The notes beneath the pieces were generated by a model that saw only the letters and a program-made list of their open reading frames with translations, searched no databases and had not been told where the DNA came from. A stretch of DNA of 64,000 nucleotides, from contig CALJNC010000027.1 in assembly GCA_937981995.1 (NCBI GenBank), positions 1 through 64,000 of the forward strand, read 5' to 3'. Shown one piece after another: positions 1,936 to 35,417 of the stretch; within the stretch, counting starts at the first letter, position 1, and every line of letters starts with the position of its first letter. The stretch comes from an uncultured Chitinophagaceae bacterium (lineage in GTDB: Bacteria > Bacteroidota > Bacteroidia > Chitinophagales > Chitinophagaceae). Made by a program: the position numbers and the translations under genes.

Positions 1936-4137
1936 TTACAACTCCACCACTCCAAATTCCTTAATCTTCTTCACAGCTTTCGAATACCAAAACAATTCAA
2001 AGTCTTCAAAGGAATTTTCATAATCGGCTTGCAAGTCACTAAGTTTTAAAATGTCTTTATTGTGGATAGAAATTTGATTGAGCATTTTCACCAGCCACTC
2101 CCCTTTTTCCTTTTCTAATTTTACAGATAAACTTTCGGTATTAGAGTGCGCTATAAGTTCTACTTGTTCTTTCTTAGTTGCTATAACTTCAGGTGCGCTA
2201 TGAAGCCAAACTAATTTTGTATTTGGTTTTAGTGAAATACTTTCTTCTTCGATTAAACATTGCTCTATATAATCTGGTTCAATCGTCGTAGTGGGAATTT
2301 CAACATCAAACCAATCTTGCAAATCATACTCAAAGCACATGCCGTGCATATAATTGTATAAAGACTTTTTTAAACCAAAAGAAAACTGATCATGATCTAT
2401 ACCCGTGCTATCTGTAAATTCTACATCATTATTAGCGAATTTGATTTCTTTTAGATTCGGTACAATGCCATAGGCTTCAGGATCTAAACCAATGGGGCTA
2501 TGCGCTGTTAAAGCAAACTGATGCCAAAAGCCAGATTGTACAATGCCGAGTTCAAATAACTGCCGTACCATTTCTAAACTATCCACGGTTTCTTGCACTG
2601 TTTGACTTGGATAGCCATACATTAAATAAGCGTGCACCATCATGCCCGCCTCGGTAAAGTTACGCGTCACTTTTGCTACTTGTTCTACGGTTACACCTTT
2701 GTCAATTAGTTTCAATAATCGATCGGAAGCAACTTCCAACCCTCCTGAAACAGCAATGCAACCCGAAGCTTTTAATAGCTTGCATAAGTCTGCTGTAAAG
2801 CTTTTTTCAAAACGAATGTTGGTCCACCAAGTGACCGTTAATCGTCTTCTTATAATTTCTATAGCCACGGCTTTCATTAAAGCAGGTGGCGCCGCTTCGT
2901 CTACAAAGTGAAAACCATACTCGCACGTTTGCTCTATGATCGTTTCCATTCTATCCACCAACAAATTGGCTGTAAGCGGTTCGTAAGTTTTGATATAATC
3001 TAAACTTACATCGCAAAACGTACACTTGCCCCAATAGCAACCATGCGCCATGGTGAGTTTATTCCACCGTCCATCGCTCCACAAACTATGCATAGGATTG
3101 GCCACTTCTATTACAGAAATATATTCTTGCAATTTCAAATCAGCATAATCCGGTGTGCCTAAATCTGCTTGTTTATAATCTTGCCGTAGCGAAAAATCAT
3201 TATAAACCACGGCATCATTTTCTAAATGAAAGGTGCGTTTTAAAAGTGGCTTCTCCGTAGGATTTTTAATTTGATCGAACAATAATTCAATGGGCAATTC
3301 GCCATCGTCCAAGGTGATAAAATCAAAAAAATCAAAAACACGCTTATCTTTCAGCGAGCGCAATTCTGTATTCGGGAAACCGCCTCCCATGGCAATTCTA
3401 ATATCAGGAAAATGCGCTTTAATATATTGCGCGCATCGAAACGCACTTAATAAGTTTCCCGGAAAAGGAACTGAAAAACAAACGAGTTTAGGTTGTTGTT
3501 CTTTTAACTTTTCTGCTAAAATTTGAATTGTGAAGTTGTCTACAAAACTTAGGTCTTGCTGAAGTTCTTCATACAGTTCATCAAAAGAATTGGCACTCCG
3601 TCCTAATCGTTCAGCATAGCGCGAAAAACCAAAATGCTCGTCTACACATTCCACAATAAAATCGGCCAAGTCCTCAAGATAAAGCGTACATAAATGTTTG
3701 GCTTTGTCTTGCATACCCATGTTGCCAAAGGCCCACTCCATATCATCCAACTGCTCAAACCGACTAGCCTGTGGCAAAAAATTACCGCTACAAACTTGCC
3801 GAGCTAAGCTAGCATTTTTTCCTTGCAGAAAAAGAATGACCGCATCAATCGTTTTGATATAACCTTCTCTTAGCTGATAAATTCTGTTGGCATTTTTACT
3901 TTGAAGCGCTTCGTTTTTTTCAATACGGTCAAACAGTTGAGTCAAGCCTTTAGTGCTGAAGAGTGCCAAGGTCACTTCTATACCTAAATCCATTTGATAG
4001 GAATCAATTCCTTTTGTATTTAAAAAACCTTTTAAATAGGCCGTTGCAGGATAGGGCGTATTGAGTTGGGTAAAAGGTGGCGTTATGAGAAGTATGTTTG
4101 ACAAGGTATCTTTTAAAGGAAATAAAGATACTTGCAA
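1936..4137 (-). CDS. B12-binding-domain radical SAM protein
   Basis: 733 residues. The N-terminus (LLITPPFTQLNTPYPATAYLKGF, residues about 17-39) and the segment 200-290 fit the cobalamin-binding half of the B12-radical SAM family; the GGGFPNTE stretch near 251 is typical of it. The iron-sulfur ligands are C367, C372 and C375, spaced CX4CX2C rather than the usual CX3CX2C. A TIM-barrel half follows, including an SGGLEVASDRLL segment. The product is unknown; members catalyse methylations or ring changes on diverse substrates. The start used is a TTG; a second in-frame TTG at 4104 fits the family N-terminus equally well and lies below a near -7 element (TATCTTTA, minus strand, 4130-4123). No biosynthetic partner gene is adjacent. 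Confidence 0.85.
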   Translation of the reverse strand: MQVSLFPLKDTLSNILLITPPFTQLNTPYPATAYLKGFLNTKGIDSYQMDLGIEVTLALFSTKGLTQLFDRIEKNEALQSKNANRIYQLREGYIKTIDAVILFLQGKNASLARQVCSGNFLPQASRFEQLDDMEWAFGNMGMQDKAKHLCTLYLEDLADFIVECVDEHFGFSRYAERLGRSANSFDELYEELQQDLSFVDNFTIQILAEKLKEQQPKLVCFSVPFPGNLLSAFRCAQYIKAHFPDIRIAMGGGFPNTELRSLKDKRVFDFFDFITLDDGELPIELLFDQIKNPTEKPLLKRTFHLENDAVVYNDFSLRQDYKQADLGTPDYADLKLQEYISVIEVANPMHSLWSDGRWNKLTMAHGCYWGKCTFCDVSLDYIKTYEPLTANLLVDRMETIIEQTCEYGFHFVDEAAPPALMKAVAIEIIRRRLTVTWWTNIRFEKSFTADLCKLLKASGCIAVSGGLEVASDRLLKLIDKGVTVEQVAKVTRNFTEAGMMVHAYLMYGYPSQTVQETVDSLEMVRQLFELGIVQSGFWHQFALTAHSPIGLDPEAYGIVPNLKEIKFANNDVEFTDSTGIDHDQFSFGLKKSLYNYMHGMCFEYDLQDWFDVEIPTTTIEPDYIEQCLIEEESISLKPNTKLVWLHSAPEVIATKKEQVELIAHSNTESLSVKLEKEKGEWLVKMLNQISIHNKDILKLSDLQADYENSFEDFELFWYSKAVKKIKEFGVVEL

Positions 4138-30803: not shown

Positions 30804-31784
30804 CTATTTATACCGATCGTCAGTCAAAGACTCCAAGAAAGCAATTAAGTCTTCCTTTTCCTGTTCAGTTAAACCAATTTTACGTGGCATAAGGCTATCG
30901 ATAGCATAAGGTTGCTTTACAAACTGTATTGGATCGTCGTAGTAATCAATAACCTCCCGCAAAGTCTTAAACATTCCATTGTGCATGTAAGGCGCTGTAA
31001 TAGCCACATTGCGCAAACCAGGTATTTTAAACTTGCCTATGTCTTCTACCCGCTTTGTTACATTATATCGCCCAGAATCATTCAAAGCTTTTCCATCAAA
31101 CAATCCAATATTTTTAAACTCATCGCTTGTAAAATCTGGTGTATAATGGCAGTCAAAACATTTGGTTTTGGTACCCGTAAATAATTCTCTTCCTCGAATC
31201 ATTTGTGCCGTCATGCCACTTGGCTCGTCATCATTTAACCAACGATCGTTGGGCGTATCTTCTGTCTCTAAGCTTTTTTCAAAGGCAGATATTGCTTGGA
31301 TTATGTTTTTCCTATTTGGTTTGGACTGATAGATTTTTTTAAATAATTTTTGATACTCTTTTACACCTTGAATTCTAGCTACTGCTGAGTCAAAAGGTAA
31401 ATTCATTTCATCGAGATTTTCTACAGGAAATACAACTTGATCTTCTAAACTATGCGCACGCCCATCCCAAAAAACAGAATCACGAAAAGCAACATTCATA
31501 ACAGAAGGCGCATTGCGATTACCAATTGCACCTCCTACCCCAATACTTAATGCGGCAGTATCTGCAAATGCAAAAGCTGGAATATGACAACTACCACAAT
31601 TAATACTTCGATCACTTGAAAGGATATTGTCAAAAAAAAGTTTCTCCCCTAAAGTAATTTCAGAATTTACTTCAACTACTTTCTTATCTCCAATAGGCTT
31701 AACCGAGCAGGCTAATAAACCAACACCAATTATTGCAAGCAAAGCAATTGATAAAACAGATTTTGAAAAGTATTTTTGCATCAT
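30804..31784 (-). CDS. Di-heme cytochrome c peroxidase (CcpA/MauG family) lipoprotein
   Basis: 326 residues from the first of two adjacent ATG codons. Lipobox with C26 (GLLAC). The two heme motifs CxxCH are at 63-67 and 209-213, the size and spacing of the bacterial di-heme peroxidase family. It should reduce H2O2 in the periplasm with electrons from c-type cytochromes; MauG-like oxidase roles are possible. The reading frame runs on upstream to 31958 but that part overlaps trmH and has no signal peptide at its head, so 31784 is chosen. Its start codon overlaps that of trmH by 2 nt. Confidence 0.9.
   Translation of the reverse strand: MMQKYFSKSVLSIALLAIIGVGLLACSVKPIGDKKVVEVNSEITLGEKLFFDNILSSDRSINCGSCHIPAFAFADTAALSIGVGGAIGNRNAPSVMNVAFRDSVFWDGRAHSLEDQVVFPVENLDEMNLPFDSAVARIQGVKEYQKLFKKIYQSKPNRKNIIQAISAFEKSLETEDTPNDRWLNDDEPSGMTAQMIRGRELFTGTKTKCFDCHYTPDFTSDEFKNIGLFDGKALNDSGRYNVTKRVEDIGKFKIPGLRNVAITAPYMHNGMFKTLREVIDYYDDPIQFVKQPYAIDSLMPRKIGLTEQEKEDLIAFLESLTDDRYK
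31748..31778 (+). promoter_or_regulatory. trmH promoter inside the peroxidase coding sequence
   Basis: TTG (31748-31750), 20-nt spacer, TATTTTTG (31771-31778), then 4 nt to the trmH ATG. Both elements match the Bacteroidota consensus and lie within codons 2-12 of the divergent peroxidase gene. Confidence 0.65.
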
Positions 31785-32373
31785 GACTCCAGAGCGTGCC
31801 GCAAAGGTAAATAAGGTTTTAAGTAAAAGGCAAAATGACCTAAGCGTAATTATAGAAAATGTTACTGACCCGCATAATATAGCTGCCGTAATGCGCACAT
31901 GCGATGCGGTAGGCATAAGTGAACTCTTTGTGCTGAATACCAAAATCAATACGCACAAGCGTTTTGGAACAAGAAGTAGCTCAAGTGCTCAAAAATGGAT
32001 GCACACGCAACAATTTACTGATTTGGAGGAATGTATGGCGGTAGTAAAGAAAAAGTATAAACGAATTTTTGCAACCCATTTAGGTGAAAGCTCTCAAACT
32101 ATATACGAAATGGATTTTACTGAGCCTATTGCACTAGTATTTGGCAATGAAAAAAGAGGCGTAAGCGATGAGATTAGGGCCCTTTGCGACGGCAATTTTA
32201 TTATACCACAGGTAGGTATGATTTCTTCCTTAAATATATCTGTAGCTTGCGCTGTTACTATTTATGAGGCTTATCGCCAAAAAGAGGCAAAAGGGCATTA
32301 TGATAGTATGAAACTAAATGCTGAACAAAAGGCTTCCCTTTTTGATTACTGGAATATCAAAGAAAATATATAA
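31783..32373 (+). CDS. trmH: tRNA (guanosine-2'-O)-methyltransferase TrmH
   Basis: 196 residues. The N-terminus (MTPERAAKVNKVLSKRQ, then PHNIAAVMRTCDAVGI) lines up with E. coli TrmH from its first residue. The SPOUT motifs follow: an LVFGNEKRGVS motif 2 (about 126-136) and SSLNISVACAVTIYEA motif 3 (about 153-168). It methylates the 2'-OH of G18 in tRNA with SAM. The start codon is fixed by this alignment and by the promoter 4 nt upstream, so the message is leaderless. A tRNA-His gene lies 50 nt downstream with its own -7 element. Confidence 0.93.
   Translation: MTPERAAKVNKVLSKRQNDLSVIIENVTDPHNIAAVMRTCDAVGISELFVLNTKINTHKRFGTRSSSSAQKWMHTQQFTDLEECMAVVKKKYKRIFATHLGESSQTIYEMDFTEPIALVFGNEKRGVSDEIRALCDGNFIIPQVGMISSLNISVACAVTIYEAYRQKEAKGHYDSMKLNAEQKASLFDYWNIKENI
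31802..31834 (-). promoter_or_regulatory. Peroxidase promoter inside the trmH coding sequence
   Basis: On the minus strand TTTG (31834-31831), 21-nt spacer, TACCTTTG (31809-31802), then 17 nt to the peroxidase ATG. Both elements lie within codons 7-18 of trmH. Confidence 0.6.
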
Positions 32374-32402: not shown

Positions 32403-32410
32403 TACATTTG
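32403..32410 (+). promoter_or_regulatory. tRNA-His promoter -7 element
   Basis: TACATTTG, exact TAnnTTTG, 13 nt before the tRNA 5' end; gives the tRNA its own promoter independent of trmH. Confidence 0.55.
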
Positions 32411-32423
32411 CCCACCTTATACG

Positions 32424-32500
32424 GACATTGTAGCTCAGTTGGTTAGAGCATCGGTTTGTGGTACCGAGGGTCGGGGGTTCGAGCCCCCTCATTGTCCCCA
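32424..32500 (+). tRNA. tRNA-His (anticodon GTG)
   Basis: The cloverleaf is complete: D stem GCTC/GAGC, anticodon stem TCGGT/ACCGA with loop TTGTGGT (anticodon GTG), T stem GGGGG/CCCCT with TTCGAGC loop, and an encoded CCA end. A G at 32423 gives the extra G-1 opposite discriminator C, the histidine identity pair. The acceptor stem GACATTG/CATTGTC has a T-T mismatch at the fifth pair. The gap 32374-32644 otherwise holds its promoter and terminator. Confidence 0.95.
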
Positions 32501-33585: not shown

Positions 33586-34143
33586 GTGTCTCAAAAACCA
33601 GAACAATTTACAGACCAGCAACTTATACTGCAATATGTGCAGCATGAGGATAAGAATGCCCTAGGTAAATTGTTTGAGCGTTATTACCACCTAGTATATG
33701 GTGTGGGTATGAAATACATGAAAAACAGCGATAAAGCCAAGGATGTAGCAATGCAGGTTTTTGAAAAGTTAATCACAGACCTTAAAAAGCACGATATACA
33801 GCATTTTAAGTCTTGGTTGTACCGTGTAGCGCAGAATGCTTGCCTTATGGAGCTGCGTAAAAACAAAACAATAACCAAACCCATAGAGGAAAACCTATTG
33901 GGCAATATGGAAAACGAAGCAGAACTGCATCAAGTAGTTGAGAAAGAGAAAATGTTGATGAATATGGAGCAAGAACTAGATAAGCTACCACCTGATCAGC
34001 AAAAATGTATAAAGCTTTTTTACTTGGAACGCAGAACATATAATGATATTTGTGAGACAACAGGCTTTACCTTTAAGCAGGTAAAAAGTTTTATACAAAA
34101 CGGAAAAAGAAACTTAAAGATTAAATTATCAGCCACCGGGTGA
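33586..34143 (+). CDS. ECF-type RNA polymerase sigma factor
   Basis: 185 residues with sigma region 2 (about 25-95: LFERYYHLVYGVGMKYMKNSDKAKDVAMQVFEKL) and region 4 (about 125-178: LPPDQQKCIKLFYLERRTYNDIC with an HTH). This is the ECF subfamily that directs RNA polymerase to special promoters. GTG start. Its stop overlaps the next GTG by 4 nt (GTGA), so it is coupled to an anti-sigma-like membrane protein, the usual partner arrangement. Confidence 0.92.
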   Translation: MSQKPEQFTDQQLILQYVQHEDKNALGKLFERYYHLVYGVGMKYMKNSDKAKDVAMQVFEKLITDLKKHDIQHFKSWLYRVAQNACLMELRKNKTITKPIEENLLGNMENEAELHQVVEKEKMLMNMEQELDKLPPDQQKCIKLFYLERRTYNDICETTGFTFKQVKSFIQNGKRNLKIKLSATG

Positions 34144-35417
34144 GCAATTTAGATAACATATTATCCCATAGTGACTGCCTAAAACAAGAGCAGCTTCAAC
34201 ACTACTTAGAAAATAAGCTAGAGAAGGAAGAGGTATATTCTATTGAAATCCACTTGATTGATTGTATGTTTTGTAGTGATGCATTAGAGGGTTTACAAAT
34301 TCTTGATGCAGAAACGAACGAAGCCAATATTGCAGACATACGAAAAGATGTAACAGCATTACTTAAAAAAGAAGACGACAAAGCAGCCTTAATTACAAAA
34401 ACGGAGACCGCCTCCCCTAGCAAATTAACAGCCCAAAAAGGTGGCAAACGTATTTCTTGGGCAGCAGTAGCTGGTATTTTCTTTCTGGTATTTGGTGGCG
34501 GCTTGGTAGTATTTTCTTACATAAACAATAATAGCGATTGGTTTGGAAATAAAGGAGAACAATACTCAAAAGTAAAAAGCACAATGGAAGGGAATAGTGA
34601 AATGGAAGCAGTTAAAAAACGTTCTCCTGAATTTGAAAACATAAGCATTGAAGCTGCTGACTTACCAGGAGCTGATCTAAAAAAAGAAAAGAAAGTAGCA
34701 AAATCTAGTAAGGATAATATTGATTTTAATAATAGCAAAAAAACAATAAATAAGAATATTGTCAAGAAAAGCACAGTTGAGGAGGAATCTAATGATGCTA
34801 CTGAAACTAGAAAAGAAATTATTGCCAAAGCAACTACACCCAAAATGGCTCAAAGCCCAAGTTCACGAGCTACACAAGATATTGGTATTTCACAAGAGAA
34901 GGATTCAGAACTAGTTACTAAAAATGAAAATCAACGAGGCAAACAAGACCTGAGTTCATTAAATACTTATTACCGTCCTAAATCTGAGGCTGGACTAAAG
35001 GATATCAACGGAATAAATGACAAAGAAAACAAAGCCATTGTAGCCAAATCTAAAAAGCGATCTAAAAAAGATGTAAGTATAGCTGGCGGTCGTGCAGACG
35101 AAACTGCATATATGATAGATAAAGTGCAAACTCAGGGAGCAAAGAAAAAAACTAGGTCGCAATACTATAGCTCGCTTGAATTAGGAAATGAAGCTTATGG
35201 CAAAAAAGAATACAAAACGAGTATCAAGTATTACAAAAAAGCCTTGCGTTCAAAAACGCTAAAGAATAGAAATGAAGTTCTTTTTAAACTAGCTTTAGCC
35301 TACGAAAAAACAAATAACATAAGTAGAGCTGAAAAAATTTACGAGCAACTAGAAGATATATCTAGCTATAAAAAAAGTGCTACAGAAGGCCTACGAAGAG
35401 TAAGAGCTAGAAGATAG
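34140..35417 (+). CDS. Membrane protein with zinc-finger anti-sigma motif and TPR tail
   Basis: 425 residues. The N-terminus carries an HX3CX2C motif (H38, C42, C45), the zinc site of ZAS anti-sigma factors. A single membrane helix at about 106-127 follows, then about 200 polar, low-complexity residues and a C-terminal TPR-like region (about 340-420: YYSSLELGNEAYGKKEYKTSIKYYKKAL). The natural reading is a sigma-binding cytoplasmic head with a periplasmic sensing tail. The overlap with the sigma gene and the zinc motif support this. The TPR outer domain is not usual and suggests a protein-protein signal. Confidence 0.75.
   Translation: MSNLDNILSHSDCLKQEQLQHYLENKLEKEEVYSIEIHLIDCMFCSDALEGLQILDAETNEANIADIRKDVTALLKKEDDKAALITKTETASPSKLTAQKGGKRISWAAVAGIFFLVFGGGLVVFSYINNNSDWFGNKGEQYSKVKSTMEGNSEMEAVKKRSPEFENISIEAADLPGADLKKEKKVAKSSKDNIDFNNSKKTINKNIVKKSTVEEESNDATETRKEIIAKATTPKMAQSPSSRATQDIGISQEKDSELVTKNENQRGKQDLSSLNTYYRPKSEAGLKDINGINDKENKAIVAKSKKRSKKDVSIAGGRADETAYMIDKVQTQGAKKKTRSQYYSSLELGNEAYGKKEYKTSIKYYKKALRSKTLKNRNEVLFKLALAYEKTNNISRAEKIYEQLEDISSYKKSATEGLRRVRARR

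Follow-up and report, generated by a model that had tools for sequence, protein, structure and literature searches.

A trmH gene on the plus strand and a ccp gene on the minus strand stand head to head in the 64,000-nt window, the whole stretch of DNA analyzed in this work (contig CALJNC010000027.1; its genome is designated G000, and two congeners are designated G001 and G002). Their start codons have two bases in common, and a promoter-like element of each gene lies inside the coding sequence of the other. This layout is real and is repeated in one sister species, and an annotation artefact was rejected since G002 repeats it. The explanation that we consider best, and reasonably probable as a whole, is a spacer-less head-to-head pair with crossed promoters, a leaderless trmH mRNA, and mild interference. 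The features of the locus are as follows.

30804-31784, minus strand: ccp, CCP/MauG-type di-heme gene; start ATG 31784-31782, 326 aa; alternative ATG 31781-31779
31783-32373, plus strand: trmH; start ATG 31783-31785, 196 aa
31783-31784, both strands: bases common to the two start codons, within the palindromic CATG 31782-31785; same in G002
31748-31750, plus strand: possible trmH -33 TTG, N20 spacing; weak
31771-31778, plus strand: trmH -7 element TATTTTTG, exact TAnnTTTG, 4 nt before the ATG, in ccp codons 3-5
31802-31809, minus strand: ccp -7 element TACCTTTG, exact TAnnTTTG, 17 nt before the ATG, in trmH codons 7-9
31831-31834, minus strand: ccp -33 TTTG, N21 spacing, over trmH codons 17-18; same motif and spacing in G002
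31783-31797, no strand: predicted 5′-end overlap of the transcripts, 15 bp; predicted starts 31783 (trmH) and 31797 (ccp)

Gene products and crossed promoter elements

The overlap of the start codons had been claimed in a sequence-only reading of this DNA, and its coordinates, 31783-31785 on the plus strand and 31784-31782 on the minus strand, agree with the sequence, in which bases 31783-31784 belong to both ATGs. CATG is its own reverse complement, and an ATG that follows a C is accompanied by an opposite-strand ATG every time. Because of this palindrome, the sharing of two bases is unremarkable when taken alone. The unusual point is that both ATGs of the CATG are gene starts.

Among 12 NCBIfam families, TrmH scored best for the plus-strand protein, with residue 1 aligned to profile position 1, yet the score of 176.4 bits lies below the equivalog cut-off of 227 bits, and for this reason the product is called a TrmH homolog. 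The protein also matches PF00588 above the cut-off, and its alignment with 1v2x, which we take to be the TrmH of T. thermophilus, begins at residue 3. When this alignment was inspected by eye, equivalents of Asn35, Arg41, Glu124, Ser150, and Asn152, the T. thermophilus TrmH residues named in passages of PMC5372735, were all matched. The plus-strand gene thus appears to encode a TrmH homolog, a putative tRNA (Gm18) 2′-O-methyltransferase (SPOUT).

Two neighboring features were noted. A tRNA-His (32424-32500) begins 51 nt past the end of trmH and, by eye, has its own TACATTTG at 32403-32410. Farther on, in 33586-35417, a 185-aa ORF resembling, by eye, an ECF-type sigma factor has a 4-nt overlap with a 425-aa ORF that could be a candidate anti-sigma or membrane partner.

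The ccp protein reached 170 bits with PF03150 (cut-off, 25.6), and two CxxCH heme motifs (CGSCH and CFDCH) and a lipobox-like LLAC were recognized by eye. The NCBIfam cut-offs for MbnH (217 versus 363 bits) and MauG (199 versus 444 bits) were not reached. These matches place the predicted protein in the CCP/MauG di-heme family, outside the named NCBIfam subgroups MbnH and MauG. The label "oxidative-stress enzyme," given to it in the sequence-only reading, is a guess, with both subgroup models below their cut-offs.

Promoters are defined here as motif matches, from which transcription starts were predicted, and the criterion was that of the Bacteroidota primary sigma factor, i.e., TAnnTTTG at -7 and TTTG at about -33. 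For ccp both elements are exact, and for trmH the -7 element is exact and the -33 element is TTG only. The earlier claim that a promoter-like element of each gene lies inside the opposite gene was thus borne out in both coordinates and motifs. The two -7 elements are separate, 23 bp apart, and face each other, and a shared symmetrical bidirectional promoter was rejected on account of these separate elements (31771-31778 on the plus strand and 31802-31809 on the minus strand). Another near-match to the motif, TACTTTTC, lies on the minus strand 18 nt to the left of where trmH begins; its transcription start would fall inside ccp, and it was put aside.

The short distance between the trmH -7 element and its ATG was compared with other genes. 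The genome sample comprised 415,409 bases, i.e., the window plus 351,409 bases of further stretches (L221 to L240), or 15% of the genome. For each of 345 genes, the ATGs considered were those no more than 120 nt from the gene start, six at most. With trmH excluded, exact TAnnTTTG elements preceded these candidate ATGs in 0 cases at gaps of 0 to 3 nt and in 10 cases at a gap of 4 nt, versus a mean of 2.1 per gap over gaps of 8 to 30 (Poisson, 8e-5); 8 further cases were found at 7 nt in the genome sample. As a control, none of 2,246 internal ATGs had the motif at gap 4. Likewise, the motif lies within 45 nt upstream of the ATG at 37 of 120 distinct trmH loci; at 18 of the 37 it is 4 to 7 nt away, and at none is it closer. 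Because the exact motif is most frequent in the genome sample at the 4-nt distance and is absent from all shorter ones, the trmH mRNA is probably leaderless, starting at or next to its AUG. The same 4-nt minimum underlies the predicted 15-bp overlap of the two transcripts.

The pattern of TAnnTTTG, 4 nt, and ATG also suggests a class of leaderless genes in this Chitinophagaceae-grouping genome. Such a candidate class contrasts with a phylum in which two transcript maps, as excerpted, found leaderless mRNAs to be scarce: they make up 5.5% of the mapped mRNAs of F. psychrophilum (PMC9723704), and 5′ untranslated regions of less than 10 nt account for about 3.7% in B. thetaiotaomicron (PMC7366714).

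Distribution and history of the interlocked starts

Three genomes of the genus were compared, among which G001 is only 70% complete. Between G002 and G000, trmH and ccp are 69% and 59% identical in protein and 68% and 63% identical in DNA, respectively. In G002, the start codons again have two bases in common, ccp again has a TTTG at N21, and the -7 elements, TACTTTTG for trmH and TATCTTTG for ccp, are both exact and occupy the same places as in G000. A trmH -33 element was not found in G002 at N17 to N23. In G001, a different gene, on the same strand, lies upstream of trmH, with no ccp there.

The codons that carry the elements were then compared between G000 and G002. Around the trmH -7 element, 5 of 6 columns at ccp residues 2-7 (QKYFS) are kept, versus 3 of 25 elsewhere in the ccp signal region (Fisher p 0.0018, for a stretch picked after the alignment had been viewed). 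There was no difference between ccp residues 2-8 and the whole rest of the protein (5/7 versus 185/314 kept; p 0.70). Synonymous tests, which counted unchanged codons among those for identical residues, gave no significant differences for trmH codons 2-9 (5/6 versus 58/124; p 0.11), trmH codons 2-18 (7/13 versus 56/117; p 0.77), and ccp codons 2-8 (4/5 versus 91/178; p 0.37). Conservation of the interlock is weak evidence of regulatory selection, because coding constraint holds the geometry once it has formed.

Beyond the genus, ccp orthologs in the family and order samples examined are otherwise not beside trmH. In the family sample (195 genomes), 28 ccp orthologs reached 49% identity or more and were all recovered as loci; trmH adjoins only those of G000 and G002. 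In the order sample, from which G002 is absent, a ccp ortholog at E 1e-75 was present in 74 of 396 genomes; G000 alone has an adjacent trmH among the 72 checked (G432 and G454 were left out, the flanks were about 1.5 to 2 kb, and that of G256 is cut by a contig end).

The trmH loci named here are the best 80 of the 132 found, and for that reason close relatives are over-represented among them. Within these best 80, ccp lies divergently beside trmH at five further loci (L076, L087, L089, L090, and L112). At four of the five, the ccp start is 60 to 83 nt left of the trmH start, i.e., 59 to 82 nt lie between them (the L087 ccp start was chosen among several, and the gaps were worked out from element positions). 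These four spaced pairs have an exact ccp -7 element 4 to 5 nt before its own ATG, unlike G000. The trmH -7 element lies to the right of it with at most one mismatch, a layout of ordinary back-to-back promoters. At L076 (near 2940-3003), the ccp frame extends without a stop as far as the CATG overlap, but a better-looking start, resembling that of a signal peptide and with TAATTTCG 4 nt before it, was recognized by eye about 58 nt farther in; this ambiguous locus was counted, with doubt, as a non-interlocked pair. L076 may represent an intermediate state.

Among the loci examined, then, the interlock was found in G000 and G002 only. Whether relatives keep the arrangement, a check proposed in the sequence-only reading, has a divided answer: it stands for G002, and it fails for G001 and for four of the five other pairs.

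To see how often the ccp promoter motifs occur inside trmH, we counted trmH loci at least 45% identical, aligned from residues 1 to 3, and with an ATG there. TAnnTTTG occurs on the antisense strand within the first 60 nt of trmH at 2/2 interlocked loci, 0/5 other ccp-trmH loci, and 6/113 loci without ccp, and the same motif together with a TTTG at N17 to N23 at 2/2, 0/5, and 0/113, respectively; the two interlocked loci are related and are not two independent events. The ccp promoter inside trmH could in principle be a free product of conserved TrmH residues, but these counts argue against it.

In the trmH tree, the bootstrap of which had yet to settle fully, a single clade of 10 rows (support, 100/96) contains all seven ccp-trmH loci, and within it G000 and G002 are sisters (100/81). 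The other rows of the clade, in which other genes adjoin trmH, are L113 (on a very long branch beside G000/G002), L008 (the G001 locus), and L096, which pairs with L008. Mapping of the ccp-trmH pair on this tree needs three changes, and a single gain entails two losses. The simplest reading would be an old divergent pair whose spacer was lost in the G000/G002 branch and whose pairing was lost twice; separate gains of the pairing are a possible alternative history. The interlock is probably derived relative to the spaced pairs. The tree also holds, among Bacteroidota rows, the trmH genes of contigs labeled Azovibrio (L097), Streptomyces griseus (L098), and Phycisphaerales (L153). These contigs are probably mislabeled or misbinned, with L153 unsure on its long branch.

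Possible interference and competing readings

According to the explanation that we favor, trmH would be transcribed from the TAnnTTTG promoter in the first ccp codons, and ccp from the TTTG-N21-TAnnTTTG promoter in the first trmH codons with a leader of about 13 nt. With promoters facing each other and transcripts overlapping by about 15 nt, polymerase would occupy one promoter at a time, and each transcript would run across the promoter of the other gene. If both promoters are active, RNA polymerases would therefore compete for the same DNA. Mild reciprocal interference between the two promoters is plausible on this geometry, as a by-product that would be noticeable only if one side were strongly activated. 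Loss of a 59- to 82-nt spacer would have produced the interlock, which would then have persisted since both flanks are coding. Promoter overlap does not by itself imply interference, because the basal activity of five bidirectional promoters tested in E. coli was too low for competition, as described in the available part of PMC12825309; the same source reports that strongly activated promoters of this type can repress the divergent transcript.

We give serious weight, short of acceptance, to a passive compaction in which the spacer was lost and both promoters act independently since neither is strong. Its anatomy is that of the favored explanation, from which it differs only in predicting no measurable interference, and the confidences held in the two are not exclusive. 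It is consistent with the ordinary divergent pair at related loci, with a genome of 2.73 Mb, and with a pair that shows no tie to stress in this analysis. Compaction is not general in this genome, however. A first ORF caller, which took the first ATG of the longest ORFs, found 57 divergent pairs with both partners of at least 100 aa in the 415,409 bases, with a smallest spacing of 38 bp; it dropped ccp/trmH and was thus blind to such pairs. A second caller, tolerant of overlapping 5′ ends, found 55 divergent pairs, of which three possibly overlap, ccp/trmH included. By eye, the other two were set aside: one has a 129-aa partner that is a shadow within the intact ORF of a secreted protein, and in the other, a signal-peptide start lies farther in, which leaves a spacing of about 57 nt. 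Besides ccp/trmH, no divergent pair of less than 38 bp was left in the 415-kb sample after the two callers and these inspections. The retention of QKYFS within a diverged signal peptide also speaks against a purely passive history.

A misassigned ccp start, at 31781 or elsewhere, by which the genes would abut without overlap, is rather unlikely but deserves consideration. The ccp N terminus reads MMQKYF, with the second in-frame ATG (31781-31779) one codon on, and its use as the start would give a 1-bp gap in place of the overlap. This tandem ATG, which leaves one codon of doubt, makes the statement in the sequence-only reading that both starts are fixed too strong for ccp. The later start is also favored by a GGAG that precedes the second ATG by five bases on the strand of ccp. 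On the other side, the homolog in G002 begins MQQKYF and has a single ATG at that place, the overlapping one, its other in-frame starts lying 43 and 58 nt inside trmH; the GGAG is missing in G002, and the available text of PMC9723704 describes Shine-Dalgarno sequences as absent in flavobacteria. We prefer, on this comparison, the overlapping ATG (31784-31782) as the probable start. A start far upstream within trmH was rejected, since the signal-peptide-like stretch begins at the overlap, though the ORF is open to 31958. Even with a start at 31781, the remainder of the best explanation could stand, and the crossed promoter layout would be the same.

It is improbable that the crossed-promoter interference has been selected as a reciprocal switch, in which inducing the di-heme enzyme would reduce TrmH and vice versa. 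The overlap of the predicted polymerase footprints, the retention of both -7 elements in G002, and the repression of divergent transcripts upon strong activation in E. coli (PMC12825309, in part) are in its favor. Set against them are the confinement of the interlock to two genomes of one branch, the spaced starts and back-to-back -7 elements at four of the five other loci, the finding in PMC12825309 that none of five E. coli promoters had enough basal activity to compete, and coding constraint, which is sufficient by itself to keep the geometry. We consider selection for a switch possible but do not favor it over by-product interference. The link between oxidative stress and tRNA modification drawn in the sequence-only reading finds no support in this distribution, and the separate, spaced promoters in relatives that were to speak against the interlock do occur at the wider range, at four of the five other pairs, with L076 ambiguous. 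Such a link is not absurd in principle: bacterial tRNA 2′-O-methylation is regulated under stress, to judge by the title of PMC7736821.

Still less credit is due to a mutual-exclusion switch free of both spacer and regulator, formed by two facing promoters within the 5′ coding ends of the opposite genes, one of which would yield a leaderless mRNA. In such a switch, the choice made by polymerase at an 80-bp stretch would set the ratio of exported heme enzyme to tRNA methyltransferase and would be kept in the genus for that purpose. Least likely of all is an RNA effect, in which the 15-nt complementary 5′ ends would pair in trans and block the trmH AUG and the ccp leader: the geometry gives a perfect 15-bp duplex (predicted, -27.2 kcal/mol here and -22.4 in G002), but such complementarity is inherent to any transcripts with crossed starts, both RNAs would have to be abundant together, and the start sites are themselves predictions.

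Relation to known systems and significance

Convergent promoters with transcriptional interference are known from phages, and in the excludon, divergent genes have overlapping transcripts, one of them with a long antisense 5′ region by which the opposite gene is controlled. A limited literature search found no paper that joins trmH, cytochrome c peroxidase, and divergent transcription.

Head-to-head genes that share start bases are likewise found among the short divergent overlaps cataloged in PMC2174442 and PMC2478687 (both in part), where they are rare and strongly under-represented: 331 divergent versus 12,737 codirectional overlaps were counted in 58 prokaryotic species, 274 of the 331 were at least 5 nt long, and those of more than 60 bp are described as misannotations (PMC2478687). 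Unlike the cataloged cases, the ccp/trmH overlap is backed by a congener and by promoter elements. The E. coli bidirectional promoters of PMC12825309, as excerpted, resemble this locus in that polymerase binds one stretch in two exclusive orientations. There, a single pseudo-symmetrical sequence is used, with starts mostly 18 bp apart, whereas ccp/trmH has two facing -7 elements 23 bp apart and transcripts that are predicted to cross. Face-to-face promoters with transcriptional interference, for which occlusion and collision are expected (PMC6593788, in part), share the facing orientation; the predicted starts of ccp/trmH are only about 15 bp apart, and each predicted promoter lies inside a conserved coding 5′ end. 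The excludon (PMC10936155 and PMC4179725, in part) likewise consists of divergent genes with overlapping transcripts, but ccp/trmH has a predicted overlap of about 15 nt and is not expected to make a long antisense leader.

Both overlapping divergent genes and facing promoters are thus known, and ccp/trmH is an unusually compact variant in which crossed promoters lie in both coding starts and one mRNA is probably leaderless. About 80 bp accommodate coding sequence, both start codons, and two facing promoters, and the spaced relatives provide a built-in comparison. The locus would offer a clean test of the superimposition of coding and promoter signals and of interference at very short spacing.
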